From Candidatus Bipolaricaulota bacterium (GTDB lineage: Bacteria; Bipolaricaulota; Bipolaricaulia; UBA7950; UBA9294): a stretch of DNA of 64,000 nucleotides. The position numbers and the translations under genes were made by a program. Below the pieces are notes generated by a model. The model was given only the letters and a program-made list of their open reading frames with translations. It was not told the origin of the DNA and searched no databases. Below, one piece after another: positions 31,016 to 39,093 of the stretch. The DNA is taken from the NCBI GenBank assembly GCA_030606565.1, contig JAUWGE010000001.1, positions 126,301-190,300 on the forward strand, read 5' to 3'. Position 1 is the first letter of the stretch. Each line of letters opens with the position of its first letter.

Positions 31016-32626
31016 TTGCGCAAGTTTATTTTCGTCACCGGGGGCGTCCTCTCCGGCCTTGGCAAAGGGGTGATTGCGGCCTCGATCGGGCTGCTGTTCA
31101 AGCTCAGAGGGTATCGCGTCACGCTTCAGAAGATCGATCCTTACCTAAACATCGACGCTGGGACGATGAATCCCTTCGAGCACGGAGAGGTGTTCGTCAC
31201 CTGCGACGGGAAGGAGACCGACCTCGACATCGGCCGTTACGAGCGGTTCCTCGATGAGGAGCTCTCAGCAGTAAACTATATCACCACCGGGCAGGTCTAC
31301 TGGAATGTTATCCGCCAGGAACGCGCCGGTGCCTTCCTCGGGAAGACGGTGCAAGTGATCCCGCACATTACCGACGAGATCAAGCGATTGATCCAACTCC
31401 CCTTGACTCAGAACAAGGCTGGGATTGGGGTGATCGAGGTAGGTGGAACCGTTGGGGATATCGAGGTCCTTCCCTTCCTGGAAGCGCTGCGGCAACTGAA
31501 GGACGAGCTCCCCCGCGAGGACACGTTCTTCGTCCACCTCACCCTCCTCCCTCATCTTGCAAGCACGGATGAAATCAAAACCAAACCAACGCAACACAGC
31601 GTGAAAGAGCTACGGGCAATCGGAATCCAACCGGACATGATCGTGGCCCGTTGCGACCGCTCCCTCGCCGACTCGATCAAGGACAAGATTGCCTTATTCT
31701 GCGACGTTCCTCAACAGAACGTGATCGAGGACCTCGATCTTCCCTCGATCTACGACGTTCCGTTAACGATGAAGGATCAGGGACTCGACCGTCGCATCGC
31801 TGAGGGACTTGGCCTCCCTCAGCAGGAGGCGAAAGTAGATCGGTGGCAAGCTCTGACCAAGCGGTTGCAAGAGCCATCACAGCGCGTGAGGATTGGGATT
31901 GTGGGAAAATACGTCCAACTCAGAGACTCCTATATGAGCATAAATGAGGCATTCCTTCACGCCGGGATCGCCCTGGATGTAGGGGTCGACCTAGAGTGGA
32001 TCTCGGCCGAGGCCATCTTCCATGAAGGCCCAAAGGCCCAATTGAGCGGCCTCGACGGTCTATTGATTCCGGGTGGGTTCGGCGATCGTGGAATCGAAGG
32101 AAAGGTGAAAGCTGTCGGGTACGTGCGAAAGAAGAGGATTCCCTTCTTTGGAATCTGTCTAGGGCTACAGTGTGCAGTGATCGAATACGCCAGGGAACAC
32201 CTCAGCCTCCCCAAAGCAAACAGCTCCGAGTTTGACCCCGCCACGCCTCACCCGGTGATAGATCTTCTCGAGGAACAGACTACAGTCACTGAAAAAGGGG
32301 GGACGATGCGCCTGGGAGCGTACGAAGCGGTCCTGCGAGAGGACTCCAAGAGCTATTCCTGTTACGGCGTCCAACGGATCTATGAGCGCCATCGCCACCG
32401 CTACGAGTTCAACCCACGCTATCGCCAGCAGTTTGAAAATGCCGGGGCACGGATCGCAGCCACCTCTCCCGACGATTGGTTGGTGGAGATCATCGAGATT
32501 GTGGAACATCCCTGGTTTGTTGGAGTTCAATTCCACCCCGAATTTAAGTCCCACTTTCTCTCCCCACACCCCCTCTTCTGCGGATTTATTAAAGCATGTC
32601 TAAAACGAAGATCTTCCTCACCATAG
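31016..32626 (+). CDS. pyrG: CTP synthase
   Basis: CTP synthase aminates UTP to CTP using glutamine. The ~536-residue enzyme begins RKFIFVTGGVLSGLGKG (P-loop of the synthetase domain), shows DPYLNIDAGTMNPFEHGEVF and GGTVGDIE, and ends with a class I glutaminase domain whose nucleophile Cys lies in GICLGLQ, with GVQFHPEF near the end. Start TTG 31016 is chosen because GGGAGG precedes it and MRKFIFVTGG is the canonical N-terminus; the frame is open further upstream. Its end overlaps lptC by 31 nt. Confidence 0.97.
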   Translation: MRKFIFVTGGVLSGLGKGVIAASIGLLFKLRGYRVTLQKIDPYLNIDAGTMNPFEHGEVFVTCDGKETDLDIGRYERFLDEELSAVNYITTGQVYWNVIRQERAGAFLGKTVQVIPHITDEIKRLIQLPLTQNKAGIGVIEVGGTVGDIEVLPFLEALRQLKDELPREDTFFVHLTLLPHLASTDEIKTKPTQHSVKELRAIGIQPDMIVARCDRSLADSIKDKIALFCDVPQQNVIEDLDLPSIYDVPLTMKDQGLDRRIAEGLGLPQQEAKVDRWQALTKRLQEPSQRVRIGIVGKYVQLRDSYMSINEAFLHAGIALDVGVDLEWISAEAIFHEGPKAQLSGLDGLLIPGGFGDRGIEGKVKAVGYVRKKRIPFFGICLGLQCAVIEYAREHLSLPKANSSEFDPATPHPVIDLLEEQTTVTEKGGTMRLGAYEAVLREDSKSYSCYGVQRIYERHRHRYEFNPRYRQQFENAGARIAATSPDDWLVEIIEIVEHPWFVGVQFHPEFKSHFLSPHPLFCGFIKACLKRRSSSP

Positions 32627-33390
32627 GCCTCCTCCTAATCGGAGCTGGGATTATTCTCCTCTTTCTTTCCTCTTCCCGGCAGGAGGAAACATCGCCACCG
32701 ACACAGGCGCAAGGGGTGAGCCTATACGGCTACGACGAAGAAGGTGCACTAAGTTGGGGCATAGAAGCGCAGGAAGGGAAGATGAAGGACGATAAGGGGA
32801 GCCTCTCCGAGGTAGAGGTCATCTTCTACGCCGATGGAAAGGAACGGTTGCAGGCAAGGGCCGATACTCTCACCTTCGAGAAAAGAGAGGTAACCCTCAG
32901 TGGGAATGTAGAGGTCATTCGTCACGACGGCTACCACCTCCAGACCGAGGCGATCACTTGGGTCGAGGCAGTGGGAGAACTTACCGCAACTCGGGTAAGA
33001 ATTACCTTGACAGCGGCGAGGTTGGAAGCGGGACAATTTCGCTATGATCTTAAAAGCGAGCACTCTTTTCTCGAAGAAGGAGTTACTGCTACACTCGACC
33101 GCTCCCCCCCGCTCCATATCGTGGGGGACAAAGCGGAGGAGAAAGATGGGAGGCTGATCCTCACTGGCGGGGTATCGGTGCAGCGGGGTGAGGAAACCTA
33201 CCACTGCGCTAGAATTACGTACGATCCGGGGACCGAAGAGACTCAACTTTCTGAAGAGGTGAATGGAACATTTCCCGCAGGGACGATCCGCGCGGAATTG
33301 GTCACCTTAAGCTCCGATGGACTCAGTACTGGCGGCGGGGTGCACCTCCTTCTCAACCACCGTTTCTTTGAAGGTACGGACGGTGCTTGA
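32596..33390 (+). CDS. LPS export LptC/LptA-like protein
   Basis: One N-terminal membrane anchor (IFLTIGLLLIGAGIILLFLS) precedes a beta-rich periplasmic region of 230 residues with repeated jelly-roll strands, such as LQARADTLTFEKREVTLSGNVEVIRHDGYHLQTEAITWV and GDKAEEKDGRLILTGGVSVQRGEETYHCARITYD. LptC and LptA share this fold and form the bridge that moves lipopolysaccharide to the outer membrane. The length (264) exceeds E. coli LptC (191), so it may combine LptC with part of an LptA/OstA repeat. The gene order pyrG-lptC-lptB supports the call. Confidence 0.78.
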   Translation: MSKTKIFLTIGLLLIGAGIILLFLSSSRQEETSPPTQAQGVSLYGYDEEGALSWGIEAQEGKMKDDKGSLSEVEVIFYADGKERLQARADTLTFEKREVTLSGNVEVIRHDGYHLQTEAITWVEAVGELTATRVRITLTAARLEAGQFRYDLKSEHSFLEEGVTATLDRSPPLHIVGDKAEEKDGRLILTGGVSVQRGEETYHCARITYDPGTEETQLSEEVNGTFPAGTIRAELVTLSSDGLSTGGGVHLLLNHRFFEGTDGA

Positions 33391-34096
33391 AGGGAAAGGA
33401 CTGACTAAGAGCTACAAAGGACGACGCGTCGTTGATCGACTCTCCATGCGAGTCGAAAGAGGGGAGATAATCGGTCTTCTCGGTCCAAACGGCGCTGGAA
33501 AGACGACGACTTTTTACATGCTGATTGGGTTCATCGCCGCCGAGGAAGGGGAGGTTCTCCTCGACGGAAAGGACATCTCCATGTTGCCCTTCTACCGCCG
33601 GACGAGACTGGGAATCAGCTACCTCCCACAGGAGCCTTCGGTCTTCACTCGCGCAAGCGCGGAGGAGAATCTCGACCTCGTATTGGAATGGTCCACCGCG
33701 CCAGGAAAGAGGTTAAAAATCCGTGAGGAACTGTTGCACGAGTTCGGCCTCGAGGGTCTGCGCACGCGGTGGGCCAGGACCCTCTCCTCGGGGGAACGAC
33801 GCCGACTGGAGATCGCCCGCGCGCTCGCTACCTCTCCTTCCTATATCCTTCTCGATGAACCGTTCTCGGGGATCGACCCAATCTCCGTAACCGATTTACA
33901 AGAACAGATCATCACCCTTAAGAGCCAGGGAATTGGACTGGTCATCACCGACCATAACGTGCGCGACACCCTCTCCATCACTGACTATGCTTACCTGATC
34001 AACGAGGGGCGGGTGATCACTGAGGGAACTCCAGAGAAGATCCTTAACGATCCGCTGGCTCGTCGATTCTACTTGGGAGAGCGCTTTCAGGCGTAA
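33383..34096 (+). CDS. lptB: LPS export ABC transporter ATPase LptB
   Basis: The 237-residue ATPase has Walker A GPNGAGKTTTFYMLIGFI, the LptB-specific LGISYLPQEPSVFTRASAEENL, signature LSSGERRRLEIARALA, Walker B YILLDEPFSGIDPI and H-loop ITDHNVRDTLSI. It powers extraction of LPS from the inner membrane with LptFG, whose genes are not seen here. GTG 33383 gives the expected N-terminus (VLEGKGLTKSYKGRRVV) and overlaps the end of lptC. The last 53 nt overlap lgt tail-to-tail. Confidence 0.94.
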   Translation: MLEGKGLTKSYKGRRVVDRLSMRVERGEIIGLLGPNGAGKTTTFYMLIGFIAAEEGEVLLDGKDISMLPFYRRTRLGISYLPQEPSVFTRASAEENLDLVLEWSTAPGKRLKIREELLHEFGLEGLRTRWARTLSSGERRRLEIARALATSPSYILLDEPFSGIDPISVTDLQEQIITLKSQGIGLVITDHNVRDTLSITDYAYLINEGRVITEGTPEKILNDPLARRFYLGERFQA

Positions 34097-34859
34097 GCCG
34101 TTGGTAGAGGCGTCGCCAGAAGATGAATCCGCCAAAGCCGATGACGAGCACCGCGCTGATCACATGTGCAGCACGGACCGGTCCAAGCCACAGACTATCT
34201 GCGCGGGTGAAGCTAACAAGCGAACGGGCAAGCGAATAGAGGATAAAATACATCGCGGTGGAAAAGCCGTCATGATATTCCTTCTTCCTGATCCACCACA
34301 GGTAGAAAAAGATAATTAGGTTGAGGATCATCTCGTAGATCATCGAGGGATGGGTAGCAAGACCAGGGTAGGCCATCCCAGCAGGCGATTCGGGCGGGAA
34401 GTGAATTCCCCACGGGAGGTTTGTGGGGAGGCCGTAAGCGTCGCCGTTCATCAGGTTGCCAATCCGACCGATCGCCTGGCCGAGGATGAGGCTGGGGGAA
34501 AGGGCGTCGGTGAGCACCCAGAACGTCACCCTCTTCACGCGAGAGAAGATGTAGACGACAATCGTTCCAGCGATCACTCCTCCGTGAATGGCGAGCCCTC
34601 CCTCCCACACCTTGACAATATCTGCGAGATGGTGGCTGTAGTAACTCCATTGAAAGGCGACGTAGTAGATCCGCGCGCCGATGATCGCCACCGGGATCGT
34701 CCACAAAAGGAGGTCAAAGAGATCTTCAGTAGACAGGGCAAGGTTCTTGCGCCGCACCTCACTTAAAAGAAGAACAAAGCCGAGCGTAATGGCGATCACG
34801 TACATCAGGCCGTAGTAGCGTATGACGATCGGCCCGATTTTAACCAGGATCGGATGCAT
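34044..34859 (-). CDS. lgt: Prolipoprotein diacylglyceryl transferase
   Basis: Lgt transfers diacylglycerol from phosphatidylglycerol to the lipobox Cys of prolipoproteins, the first step of lipoprotein maturation. The 271-residue protein has seven membrane segments, GGLAIHGGVIAG with the essential His, and the signature GRIGNLMNGDAYGLPTNLPWG with the essential Arg. The C-terminal tail is coded within the 3' end of lptB on the other strand. Lnt, the last enzyme of the same pathway, is encoded divergently 35 bp away. The lipoproteins at 36.4-39.1 kb are probable substrates. Confidence 0.95.
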   Translation of the reverse strand: MHPILVKIGPIVIRYYGLMYVIAITLGFVLLLSEVRRKNLALSTEDLFDLLLWTIPVAIIGARIYYVAFQWSYYSHHLADIVKVWEGGLAIHGGVIAGTIVVYIFSRVKRVTFWVLTDALSPSLILGQAIGRIGNLMNGDAYGLPTNLPWGIHFPPESPAGMAYPGLATHPSMIYEMILNLIIFFYLWWIRKKEYHDGFSTAMYFILYSLARSLVSFTRADSLWLGPVRAAHVISAVLVIGFGGFIFWRRLYQRLTPESALPSRIDEPADR

Positions 34860-34894: not shown

Positions 34895-36373
34895 ATGAGC
34901 GCCTACCGCGGAAGAAAAGCCTTACTCGCGCTGTTTGCTGGAGCGGCGATCGCCCTGTCCATGCCGGGCTTCAGGCTTGGTCCCCTCGCCTTTGTCGCTC
35001 TTGTCCCACTCTTTCTCGCCCTCGAGGAGGGAAAAGGGTTCTTGATGGGGTTTCTCACCGGTGTTACCTTCTTTGCCATCGACCTGCGTTGGCTACTCAC
35101 CCTTTATCGATTCAACCCTCTCGTCGTCCCAGGCTACCTCCTTCTCGTTATTTACTTAGCTTCTTATTTGGGGCTGTTCGGACTCATCATGGGCTGGCTT
35201 GGTAAAAAATGGGGATATGATGGAACGCTACTCATCCTGGCACCTCTTTCCTTCACCCTCCTGGAGATCCTGCGAACGCACGGTCCACTCGGGAACGGTT
35301 TCTCAGCCCTCTATCAGAGCTTGTACCGTTTTCCCGAGCTGATTCAGGTGGTGGCTCTCGCCGGGCCGTGGGCCCTCAGCGCCGCGATCGTCTTTGTCAA
35401 TACCTCCGTTTACCTTGCACTCCGTAAGCGACCGGCCTATCTCCTAACCGGCCTAGGAATGATAGGGTTCCTCGCTGGGCTCTTTTTACTGCCGATTCCA
35501 CAGGACGGGGAGCCGCTCAAAACAGCAGTCATCTCCTCGAACGTCTCCCAAGAGGTGAAGCTCAACGGGCGAAACCTACTTCCTCTTTTAGAGAAGTACA
35601 TCGCGCTGGGGAAGGAAGCAGCTACCCAAAACCCTGATCTCATCGTCTTTCCGGAGTCGATCCTCCCAGGCTATATTCTTCGCGACGAGAGGCTCCTTCC
35701 TGAATTCACCCGCCTTGCACAGGAGGCAGGTTCACACGTCCTCTTCGGAACAGGCGACATCCGCAGTGGAAAGATCTACAATAGCGTCGCTCTTATCTCT
35801 CCCACAGGTGAGATCTTAGACATCTACAGCATGGTCTACCCAGTCCCGTTCGGTGAATATATCCCGGGAAGGAGGTTGTTAGCGAAAATCGGCCTTGGCA
35901 GCTTTGCCGCCTCTTTCCTCCCCCAGGACCTCGCACGCGGGGAGGGGCTCACTCCAATTGGAGGGATCGGCACGCCAATTTGCTTTGAGTCAACCTTACC
36001 TGCTATCATACGAGGATTCACCGCTAATGGTGCCACCCTGCTCGTTACGGTGACCAATGACGCCTGGTTCCTGAAGAGCTCGGAACTGCGTGCACACTTC
36101 GCTTGCGCGGTCTTCCGCGCTGTCGAGACAAGGCGCTACCTGATCCAGGCAGCAAATGGAGGAATCTCCGGCATCATCGACCTGCGGGGAAGGATTCTAA
36201 GAGAGATCACAGGTGAAGGAATTATCTCGGCCGAGGTAGTGCAGAGGAAAGATCGGTCCCTATACACCCGCTGGGGCGAATCGCCACTCTACGCGGCATT
36301 CGCCGTGGGGGGACTCGCCGCCGTGCTAATGTGGAAGAGAAAGGGTCGCCAGGGGCGGAACCAGAACCGCTAG
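34895..36373 (+). CDS. lnt: Apolipoprotein N-acyltransferase, atypical active site
   Basis: Lnt N-acylates the lipobox Cys of diacylated lipoproteins. The 492-residue protein has about eight membrane segments and a nitrilase-like domain with Glu254 (VFPESILPG) and nucleophile Cys363 (TPICFESTLPA), then TNDAWF. The third catalytic residue, normally Lys in Y-x-K-x-H-L-V-P-F-G-E, aligns with Met313 (IYSMVYPVPFGEYIP). This raises the question of whether acylation still occurs. A TATGAT box ends 9 nt before the ATG and no Shine-Dalgarno is seen. The domain order and length are otherwise normal. Confidence 0.88.
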   Translation: MSAYRGRKALLALFAGAAIALSMPGFRLGPLAFVALVPLFLALEEGKGFLMGFLTGVTFFAIDLRWLLTLYRFNPLVVPGYLLLVIYLASYLGLFGLIMGWLGKKWGYDGTLLILAPLSFTLLEILRTHGPLGNGFSALYQSLYRFPELIQVVALAGPWALSAAIVFVNTSVYLALRKRPAYLLTGLGMIGFLAGLFLLPIPQDGEPLKTAVISSNVSQEVKLNGRNLLPLLEKYIALGKEAATQNPDLIVFPESILPGYILRDERLLPEFTRLAQEAGSHVLFGTGDIRSGKIYNSVALISPTGEILDIYSMVYPVPFGEYIPGRRLLAKIGLGSFAASFLPQDLARGEGLTPIGGIGTPICFESTLPAIIRGFTANGATLLVTVTNDAWFLKSSELRAHFACAVFRAVETRRYLIQAANGGISGIIDLRGRILREITGEGIISAEVVQRKDRSLYTRWGESPLYAAFAVGGLAAVLMWKRKGRQGRNQNR

Positions 36374-36410: not shown

Positions 36411-37676
36411 CTATGGTTCTATGGTTACCGTCGCCTCGCCGCTCGCAGTGACCTCGTGCCCATCATCGTCTTCGGCCTTAGCGGTCACCGTGTTCGTAAT
36501 GCTCTCCTCGACGGTCCCGGTCACCACAGCTTTGAAGTCGCAATTGTAGAAGCTACCAACAGGGATCAGCGGCAGCGGCGGCGTGCAGCTCGTAGTCTGC
36601 ACCTCGGTCAGGTCGCCGTAGAGGTCATCGATCAGCGAGGTGAGAGTGACGCTCCTAGCGCCGGTGTTGTCCACGCGAACGGTGAAGACGACAGTGCTAC
36701 CCGACTGTACCGAGGCGGGGTCAGCGGTCTTGCTTACCGCGATCGATGTTCCCCAGCAGGGTATCCCATAGGTAGCCAACAGGAATGGGACGTAGTATGG
36801 GCTAGGATAGGCCGGTACGATGGACTTCCCTGTCACTACCGCGGTGACCTCGTCTGGGATACAGTCGGTCGGTCCTACACCGTCACCCAGCACCGCGTTC
36901 ATGTCGGTTATTCCATCATCTCCACCCAGATAAGTCAGGGGAATCGTCAGGGTTAGCACGGTTCCCGCCAGTGTGTAAGCCGCATCGCCTACATCCGTAA
37001 AGCCCGGGGTTTTGTAGATGTCGTAGTTACCCGCCGCATTAACGAAGAAGAGGGAAACGAAATAATCACTCCCGATCGCTTGTGCAGCAAAGGGACCACA
37101 CGGGCAGAAATAGAAGTTTGCAGAAGGGATGCCGGTCGCCACAATTTCATCGGTATCAAAACAGACAAAGCCCGCGAGGTCTCCCGGGCCAACCGCCATA
37201 CCCGGCGCGGGGATCGTCGGTGATGCAGTCAGGTTGATGGTGACGGTCAGCGTAGTGGAAGTGCGCGAGGTGCTTATCCCGGTGATGTCGTATGTTCCCA
37301 GGCCAAAGACATCCCCAGCGGCGTCAACAAGAGCCGCGTTGATCGGGGGCTTGATGGTGACGGTGGCGGAGCCGGTGATACTGGGATAGCCCACCCGAGT
37401 TGCTGTTATCGTGGCATTAGTGACGACGGAGACAGCCGGCGGAGCCATGTATACACCGGCTGAGGTGATTGTACCCGTACCCGGACCGCTGGAGACACTC
37501 CAGATCACAGCGACCGGGTTACCGAGGTGATCGACCGCGGTGAAGGTGACGGTCCCTCCCCCCTCCACAATCGCTGAGGTTGGAGTGACAACAAGCGATG
37601 TTAAGCGCATGCACCCTGCCAACGCCAATCCAATAACTCCTAAGATCAAGCCGACTAAGAGAATTCTCTTTGACAT
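36411..37676 (-). CDS. Lipoprotein with Ig-like and DUF11-type domains
   Basis: A lipoprotein signal (lipobox LAGC, Cys22) precedes 400 residues of low-charge beta-rich sequence. Residues 26-110 look like a bacterial Ig-like (Big_2) domain (LVVTPTSAIVEGGGTVTFTA). A middle region of ~190 residues resembles surface or sugar-binding modules (LVDAAGDVFGLGTYDITGIS). Residues ~325-421 form a DUF11-type repeat (VSKTADPASVQSGSTVVFTV, VRVDNTGARS). It is probably displayed on the cell surface. A strong AAGGAGG precedes the start. It lies downstream of another lipoprotein gene with a hairpin between them. No enzyme motif is seen. Confidence 0.72.
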   Translation of the reverse strand: MSKRILLVGLILGVIGLALAGCMRLTSLVVTPTSAIVEGGGTVTFTAVDHLGNPVAVIWSVSSGPGTGTITSAGVYMAPPAVSVVTNATITATRVGYPSITGSATVTIKPPINAALVDAAGDVFGLGTYDITGISTSRTSTTLTVTINLTASPTIPAPGMAVGPGDLAGFVCFDTDEIVATGIPSANFYFCPCGPFAAQAIGSDYFVSLFFVNAAGNYDIYKTPGFTDVGDAAYTLAGTVLTLTIPLTYLGGDDGITDMNAVLGDGVGPTDCIPDEVTAVVTGKSIVPAYPSPYYVPFLLATYGIPCWGTSIAVSKTADPASVQSGSTVVFTVRVDNTGARSVTLTSLIDDLYGDLTEVQTTSCTPPLPLIPVGSFYNCDFKAVVTGTVEESITNTVTAKAEDDDGHEVTASGEATVTIEP

Positions 37677-37699
37677 CTAAACCTCCTTATGGGACCCGC

Positions 37700-37725
37700 T
37701 AGGGGCGGAGAGATCCTCGCCCCTA
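37700..37725 (-). terminator. Hairpin between two lipoprotein genes
   Basis: TAGGGGCG (37700-37707) and CGCCCCTA (37718-37725) form an 8-bp stem that starts in the stop codon of the upstream gene on the minus strand. No T-run follows and the next Shine-Dalgarno is 20 nt away, so it more likely adjusts expression or RNA stability than ends transcription. Confidence 0.45.
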
Positions 37726-39093
37726 TGGCCCATTTTTACTATCTCTTATTGCAGGGTTCACGTTATCGCCGGTTAAAGTGAGTGGAGTAACCGTGCCATC
37801 TGTAAAGGAGACTTTATAGATGTTACAGGGAACGCCCACTTTTCTAACAAAGGCGAGTCCGGAACCATCCTCCAACCAGTAGGGACAGAACTCATCTTTA
37901 GTTGTATCGGTGATCTGTCCTGACGTAACAGTGCCTGTAATGAGACTGTTAACATACGCCTCCAGGGTGCGCTCATTGCTCGCAGTTCCAGTAGTCGAGA
38001 TGTTTATGACGTAGATGTCGCTCTTTCCGGCCCCAGCTTTATTGCTGGAAAAGGCGATCTTTGTCCCATCAGGCGACCAGGCTGGCTTGGAGATCCCATC
38101 GGGGAGGTCAAGCGCTGGGGTAACAGCTGGGAACCCCGTCGGGGAGGCATCCCCATAACGGTGAGTATGAGCAGTGCTACTGGCGGGCCAGAGCTGCGTG
38201 GCAGTGGTAGTGGGGCTATTCCACAACCAGAGTGCGCTTCCAGTGCTTGTGTTGTTCTTCTCGGAGACAAAGGCGATTTTGTCGCTAGTCGGTGAGTAGG
38301 CCGGGGCCCAGGAGGGCGATTGTGGCAGCTGCGTTGGGGTCCCTCCCACAGCGTCTATGGTATAGATCTGCCACGTTGTGTCAGATGGCGTCTGCGCGGC
38401 GTTCGACGCGTAGGCGATCTTGCTCCCATCATACGACCAGCTCGGCTGGATCTCATTGCTCGGGGTCTGAGTCGTCAGTTGGCTTATATGAACACCCGTT
38501 ACGGTCATGGTATGGATATCCCAGTTGGTGCCATCCTCCTCTGCATAGGCGATCTTGTCCCGCGTTCCACGGATCACGTCCGGGAACAGCTCGTCGTTCA
38601 TGGGGCTGTCGTAGATCAGTCCGTCACCGCTCCCATCAGCCATCGTTCGATAAATACCGTAGTTGTTTCCACTGCGCTTACTGGCAAAGAAGACCATCTC
38701 TTGCCCAACGACGACTGTTGCACTATCCATCCCCGTTCTGCCATCGTTGTCCGTGACAGTCAGGATAACCGTGTAGATCCCCCCGACTGCGTAAGGGTGA
38801 GTGAACGAACTGGTAGGTATTGTTGTCCCGTTATTCTTGGTCGATCCATCCCCGTAGTCAACCTCGTAGCTCACGATCGTTCCATCTGGGTCGTTCGATC
38901 CACTGATGTCAAAGGTGACCGTCACCGGCACCTGCTGGGTATCTGCCGGAAGTGTCACGACGAGCAGGGCGATCGGAGCCTGTCCAAAGAACCCCCGACA
39001 AGCAGCGAGTCCCACCATCAAGCCGAGCAGAAGCAGAACGGCAATGAAGTGTTTGAGCCTATTTTTCCTAGCAGCGCTTCTCGTTGCAGGCAT
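37723..39093 (-). CDS. Lipoprotein with PKD domain and TolB-like beta-propeller
   Basis: After a lipobox (GLAAC, Cys32) a PKD domain spans ~42-130 (FDISGSNDPDGTIVSYEVDYGDG, TVILTVTDNDG). The rest is a PD40/TolB-type propeller with repeated blades: SWSYDGSKIAYASN, YSPTSDKIAFVSE, WSPDGTKIAFSSN and LEDGSGLAFVRK. Such proteins are periplasmic or surface scaffolds that bind partners or glycans; no catalytic role is indicated. It is 456 residues long, Ser/Thr-rich and poor in Lys, unlike cytoplasmic neighbours. It probably heads a two-gene operon with the following lipoprotein and faces away from the ECF sigma gene. Confidence 0.78.
   Translation of the reverse strand: MPATRSAARKNRLKHFIAVLLLLGLMVGLAACRGFFGQAPIALLVVTLPADTQQVPVTVTFDISGSNDPDGTIVSYEVDYGDGSTKNNGTTIPTSSFTHPYAVGGIYTVILTVTDNDGRTGMDSATVVVGQEMVFFASKRSGNNYGIYRTMADGSGDGLIYDSPMNDELFPDVIRGTRDKIAYAEEDGTNWDIHTMTVTGVHISQLTTQTPSNEIQPSWSYDGSKIAYASNAAQTPSDTTWQIYTIDAVGGTPTQLPQSPSWAPAYSPTSDKIAFVSEKNNTSTGSALWLWNSPTTTATQLWPASSTAHTHRYGDASPTGFPAVTPALDLPDGISKPAWSPDGTKIAFSSNKAGAGKSDIYVINISTTGTASNERTLEAYVNSLITGTVTSGQITDTTKDEFCPYWLEDGSGLAFVRKVGVPCNIYKVSFTDGTVTPLTLTGDNVNPAIRDSKNGP

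Follow-up and report, generated by a model that had tools for sequence, protein, structure and literature searches.

A conserved methionine in place of the catalytic lysine in Lnt-like proteins of one Bipolaricaulota family

In one family of the phylum Bipolaricaulota, Lnt occurs as a variant that is maintained across the clade: a conserved methionine has replaced the catalytic lysine and become fixed. The Glu-Lys-Cys triad is treated as defining both Lnt and the nitrilase superfamily. The gene through which the variant was recognized lies in a stretch of 64,000 nucleotides, hereafter the window, which belongs to a MAG of 1.8 Mb that is 91% complete.

The lnt-like gene of the window (positions 34895–36373, + strand) is an open reading frame of 492 aa without internal stop codons, and its product combines an LNT_N membrane domain with a nitrilase domain, being matched by both PF20154 and PF00795 in searches with Pfam profiles. 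Its score against the lnt equivalog TIGR00546 was 257 bits (cut-off, 132.9). The protein was modelled with AlphaFold2 at high confidence (pLDDT 95.3, pTM 0.94); the 24 best matches of the model in the PDB were all Lnt, with a TM-score of 0.87 to E. coli Lnt (8aq4). Alignment with phmmer pairs the segment IYSMVYPVPFGEYIP of the window protein with RYNKNHLVPFGEFVP of the E. coli enzyme, placing Met313 at the position of the catalytic Lys335. The initial annotation, which had reported methionine in place of this lysine with an ATG codon at 35831–35833 (+ strand), was therefore correct, coordinates included. The presence of the two other triad residues, also claimed there, is borne out by pairwise alignment with solved Lnt structures: Glu254 (35654–35656, +) is equivalent to E267, the general base, and Cys363 (35981–35983, +) to C387, the nucleophile, and each is conserved in every sequence read. 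Glu321 (35855–35857, +), likewise Glu in all sequences, corresponds to E343, which in E. coli is the partner of Lys335 (PMC5500888) and is left partnerless here. The equivalent of E. coli E389 is also present, W237 is replaced by Leu and Y388 by Phe; the latter two changes were found in the alignment in Lys-type relatives from Bipolaricaulota as well. The W237 position, residue 223 (35561–35563) in the window protein, is occupied by Leu or Ser in almost every Bipolaricaulota Lnt, Lys-types included. Homology and fold, and not possession of the full triad, place the window protein in the Lnt family. Since a defining catalytic feature, the lysine, was checked and is absent, the protein is to be classed as an Lnt-like variant rather than a proven Lnt.

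The census covered a sample of 100 Bipolaricaulota genomes; f1–f9 are codes for families, f1 being the GTDB-level family of the window genome, and g-numbers denote genera. Aligning lnt of related genomes, the check proposed in the initial annotation, returned Glu-Met-Cys in all 22 readable f1 genes, which come from separate MAGs of 10 genera and whose products are between 89% and about 50% identical to the window protein. Four further f1 genes were unreadable at the methionine site, ending before it or being broken at it. In one f1 genome (G014; L128, 1334–2634) a frameshift interrupts lnt shortly before the active-site motif; this may reflect a true disruption or a faulty assembly. Methionine was also present in three f4 genes (L047 and L095 of genus g26, and L091 of g33), and lysine in 53 other Bipolaricaulota Lnts (f3, f4, f5, f7, f8 and f9) and six outgroup sequences. 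The methionine codon is ATG in 25 of 25 Met-type genes; the lysine codon of the remaining genes is AAG in 42 cases and AAA in 19, counts that include two non-Lnt paralogues which were later dropped. It had been suggested that one base of the assembly, at 35832, might be wrong, and AAG and ATG do differ by a single base. However, the same ATG recurs in 22 f1 genomes and in three f4 genomes of an independent clade, which refutes the suggestion and renders a sequencing or assembly error a negligible concern.

Methionine at this position was rare beyond these genomes. The DNA motif [YF]-x-M-x-x-P-V-P-F-G-E recovered 21 f1 genomes, serving as a positive control, and had no match elsewhere; the 22nd f1 gene (G011) has the LVPFGE form and was recovered by a second motif. 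Among sampled bacteria from other phyla, the Met motif was found in 0 of 278 genomes in its PVPFGE form and in 0 of 289 in its LVPFGE form, and the Lys motif in about 129 of the 278 (157 matches minus 28 from Bipolaricaulota), counts that pass over Lnts with a different loop, among which further Met cases are possible. No natural lysine-less Lnt or nitrilase was found in the literature searched, which is not proof of absence. Within the phylum, a tree of 86 rows with the motif columns excluded requires two changes, and in a more careful tree of 42 rows a single origin of methionine occurred in none of 200 bootstrap trees. Forcing the Met-types together cost 173 log-likelihood units, and a single origin was rejected (AU p=0.00014). 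Since the outgroup has lysine, parsimony reads both changes as Lys to Met, and the replacement therefore arose twice independently in Bipolaricaulota.

The Met-type genes evolve under purifying selection. Values of dN/dS were 0.13–0.30 between close Met-type pairs and 0.13–0.36 between Lys-type pairs; Glu254, Asn296, Glu321, Cys363, Glu365 and Arg408 are invariant among Met-types, and the model of the f4 protein L091 was of similarly high confidence to that of the window protein (pLDDT 94.2, pTM 0.92). Met313 itself is invariant in f1, its neighbours 312, 314 and 315 being variable, and no f1 gene has reverted to lysine, though one base would suffice. This pattern of substitution suggests that selection keeps the methionine itself, beyond tolerating the absence of lysine. 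N-acylation may have been lost, as the initial annotation had offered among its options, but the selection that holds the methionine and the other catalytic residues argues against simple decay. That the gene is heading for loss, N-acylation having become unnecessary, would agree with the frameshifted copy in G014 and with the absence of Lnt from genus g8 and families f2 and f6 (see below); this idea is disfavoured and appears very improbable given the low dN/dS, the intact state of the gene in nearly all f1 genomes and the invariance of the methionine among proteins as little as about 50% identical. Another proposal is that the Met-type protein is a pseudoenzyme, performing no acyl transfer and retained to bind lipids, lipoproteins or a partner. 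The inactivity of the E. coli K335A mutant, the lack of Lnt in some relatives and the failure of an altered mycobacterial homologue, BCG_2279c (Cys to Ser), to replace Lnt (PMC3850990) would fit it. However, selection on the Met-types is as strong as on the Lys-types, and Glu254 and Cys363, for which a protein kept purely for binding would have no use, are invariant in all of them; we consider a pseudoenzyme unlikely.

Lgt is the first enzyme of the lipoprotein pathway, and in the window its gene (34044–34859, − strand; PF01790) lies next to lnt in divergent orientation. Among the 33 f1 genomes, lgt (TIGR00544) was detected in 29 and LspA also in 29. Downstream of lnt, two genes (36411–39093, − strand) encode signal peptides with lipoboxes (LAGC and LAAC) and are possible substrates. 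The region between pyrG and lgt (32596–34096, + strand) contains an LptC-like gene and one for an ABC ATPase whose position makes it LptB-like. A closed Acetothermia genome has been reported to be without lipopolysaccharide genes (PMC6092417). LolCE gave no information as a proxy for function: no Bipolaricaulota protein matched it at the model cut-off, the Lys-type f4 genomes being as weak in this respect as f1. A second, Lys-type Lnt that would relax the constraint on the Met copy was sought and rejected for the window genome, the other match on the contig being a far shorter open frame of 261 aa; none of the f1 genomes has two full Lnt matches over the cut-off.

Some relatives have no Lnt over the cut-off. 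These include the four genomes of genus g8 within the f1 family (G010, G019, G025 and G030), which keep Omp85 and, beside pyrG, lgt; the one such locus inspected (G010; L125, 408–4123) has none of lptC, lptB and lnt next to lgt. The g8 genomes suggest that N-acylation may be dispensable in the f1-family group. Likewise, no Lnt over the cut-off was found in f2 (G033 and G034) and f6 (G039, G042, G045, G048, G051 and G054), with Omp85 present in all eight genomes, which are probably Lnt-less diderms. A lost outer membrane is not supported as the cause of Lnt loss, Omp85 being still present. Given that relatives which still look diderm have lost Lnt, the Met-type enzyme may itself face a demand that is relaxed or changed.

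Lys335 of E. coli Lnt acts with backbone amides of the nucleophile elbow to stabilise the oxyanion and is held by Glu343 at 2.8 Å; the K335A substitution abolishes activity (PMC5500888, PMC5500890). The initial annotation had listed substitution by another residue among its options, and this is the one we favour, the substitutes having the standing of candidates: Arg65 and Arg72 in f1, and Lys222 in both Met clades. Exactly two positive charges in the whole protein are f1-specific and conserved (Arg or Lys in ≥85% of f1 and <15% elsewhere), namely Arg65 (35087–35089, +; 26/26 f1 sequences) and Arg72 (35108–35110, +; 24/26). In the alignment and the model, Arg65, Thr69 and Arg72 are spaced i, i+4, i+7 and share one face of helix 65–72. 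By pairwise alignment and counting from the chain numbering, the two arginines are equivalent to N73 and T81 of the E. coli enzyme, which flank S78; the alignment of the membrane helices, at about 25% identity, could be off by one residue or more. In E. coli, residues A72–L101 form a lining of the catalytic cavity, and the S78W substitution there renders the enzyme inactive (PMC5500890). As an f1-specific conserved charge aligned to this cavity-lining segment, at the end of TM3 by homology, Arg65 is the leading candidate for the role of the lysine in f1. It cannot be the general answer, since the f4 Met clade is without Arg65 and Arg72; no other new conserved Lys or Arg was found in that clade.

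Lys222 (35558–35560, +), aligned next to the W237 position in arm 7, may play a permissive or a compensating part. Lys occupies this position in 24 of 25 Met-type genes and in only six Lys-type genes of Bipolaricaulota, including three that are the closest Lys-type sisters to the f4 Met clade. Since Lys335-bearing Lnts of other phyla also have it, Lys222 may be permissive rather than compensating. A conserved lysine elsewhere in the active site had been named as the finding that would overturn the annotated loss; the only highly conserved lysine is Lys222, and its occurrence in Lys-types of other phyla leaves no clear case of a relocated catalytic residue.

Taken together, the reading we prefer, with about even confidence, is that the Met-type protein is a working Lnt-type acyltransferase in which the role of the lysine has been taken over. 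Acyl transfer from phospholipid, dependent on Cys363 and Glu254, would be retained, and the acceptors would most likely be the lipoproteins that the neighbouring Lgt and LspA produce. Backbone amides of the nucleophile elbow would hold the oxyanion, aided by a positive charge from elsewhere; in f1 the most plausible source is Arg65 (with Arg72), at the periplasmic end of TM3, and it could in addition form a pair with the partnerless Glu321. The neighbouring lgt and the LspA kept in these genomes, the lack of a second Lnt and the retention of the fold and the rest of the active site speak for an active Lnt; against it count the inactivity of K335A in E. coli (PMC5500888, PMC5500890) and of the equivalent Ala mutant of AatD (PMC7943197). 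Going further, we hold it plausible, at somewhat less than even confidence, that lysine-independent catalysis in the nitrilase superfamily evolved twice, yielding an active Glu-Met-Cys Lnt: in one lineage the membrane domain (Arg65, TM3) would have taken over from the nitrilase domain as the source of the oxyanion charge, and in the other the charge would come from a different source or be lacking altogether.

A change of function would account for some of the same observations. An acyl-enzyme would still form on Cys363 and the methionine would be adapted to a different reaction or acceptor, such as another amine, a hydroxyl or slow deacylation of phospholipid. Methionine is conserved, and lysine not merely lost; f1 has further specific invariant residues (Arg65, Thr69, Phe136, Pro361 and Gly422); the W237 position is Leu or Ser across the phylum; and AatD exemplifies an Lnt relative with a new acceptor (PMC7943197). 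However, AatD retained its lysine, the change at W237 is common to the Lys-type relatives, and in f1 lnt adjoins lgt, with lipobox genes downstream in the window. A changed function seems rather improbable, though less so than a pseudoenzyme.

The lysine was required in the Lnt-type enzymes tested in the studies consulted, E. coli Lnt and AatD (PMC5500888, PMC5500890, PMC7943197). In Bipolaricaulota, the enzyme has been kept over long divergence with its Cys and Glu, methionine has been fixed and a second case has arisen, which makes the dispensability of the lysine and its possible replacements directly testable: either the enzyme works without lysine or it took another job. The finding bears on lipoprotein acylation in uncultured bacteria, and also on annotation, as the genes pass the lnt equivalog cut-off despite the missing catalytic residue.

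In E. coli Lnt, W237, E343, Y388 and E389 are essential, W237 for the second step. The window protein shares with this enzyme (PDB 5N6H, 8AQ3 and 8AQ4) the domain order, the fold and the equivalents of Glu267, Glu343, Cys387, Glu389, Asn314, His425 and Arg432, and differs from it in the replacement of Lys335, W237 and Y388 and in the new Arg65 and Arg72. Its nearest relatives, the Lys-type Lnts of f3, f4, f5, f7, f8 and f9, are roughly 30–44% identical to it and have the same loss of W237, but keep the lysine. Unlike the window protein, the Lys-types of f3, f5, f7, f8 and f9 carry a one-residue insertion before the E343 equivalent; in L028, L029, L030, L031 and L077 (f5, f7, f3, f8 and f9) VPFSTEY stands for VPFGEY and the E343 equivalent is shifted by one. 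AatD, the glycine N-acyltransferase of Enterobacterales, is a relative of Lnt with the same Cys mechanism, but acts on another acceptor, keeps Glu-Lys-Cys and requires the lysine (PMC7943197). The second Lnt homologues of mycobacteria, BCG_2279c and Rv2262c/2261c, resemble the Met-types in that one triad residue is changed (PMC3850990). There, however, the change is Cys to Ser, and the canonical Lnt, BCG_2070c, is also present and is not replaced by BCG_2279c (PMC3850990), whereas in f1 it is the sole Lnt that is altered, at the lysine, with the cysteine kept.
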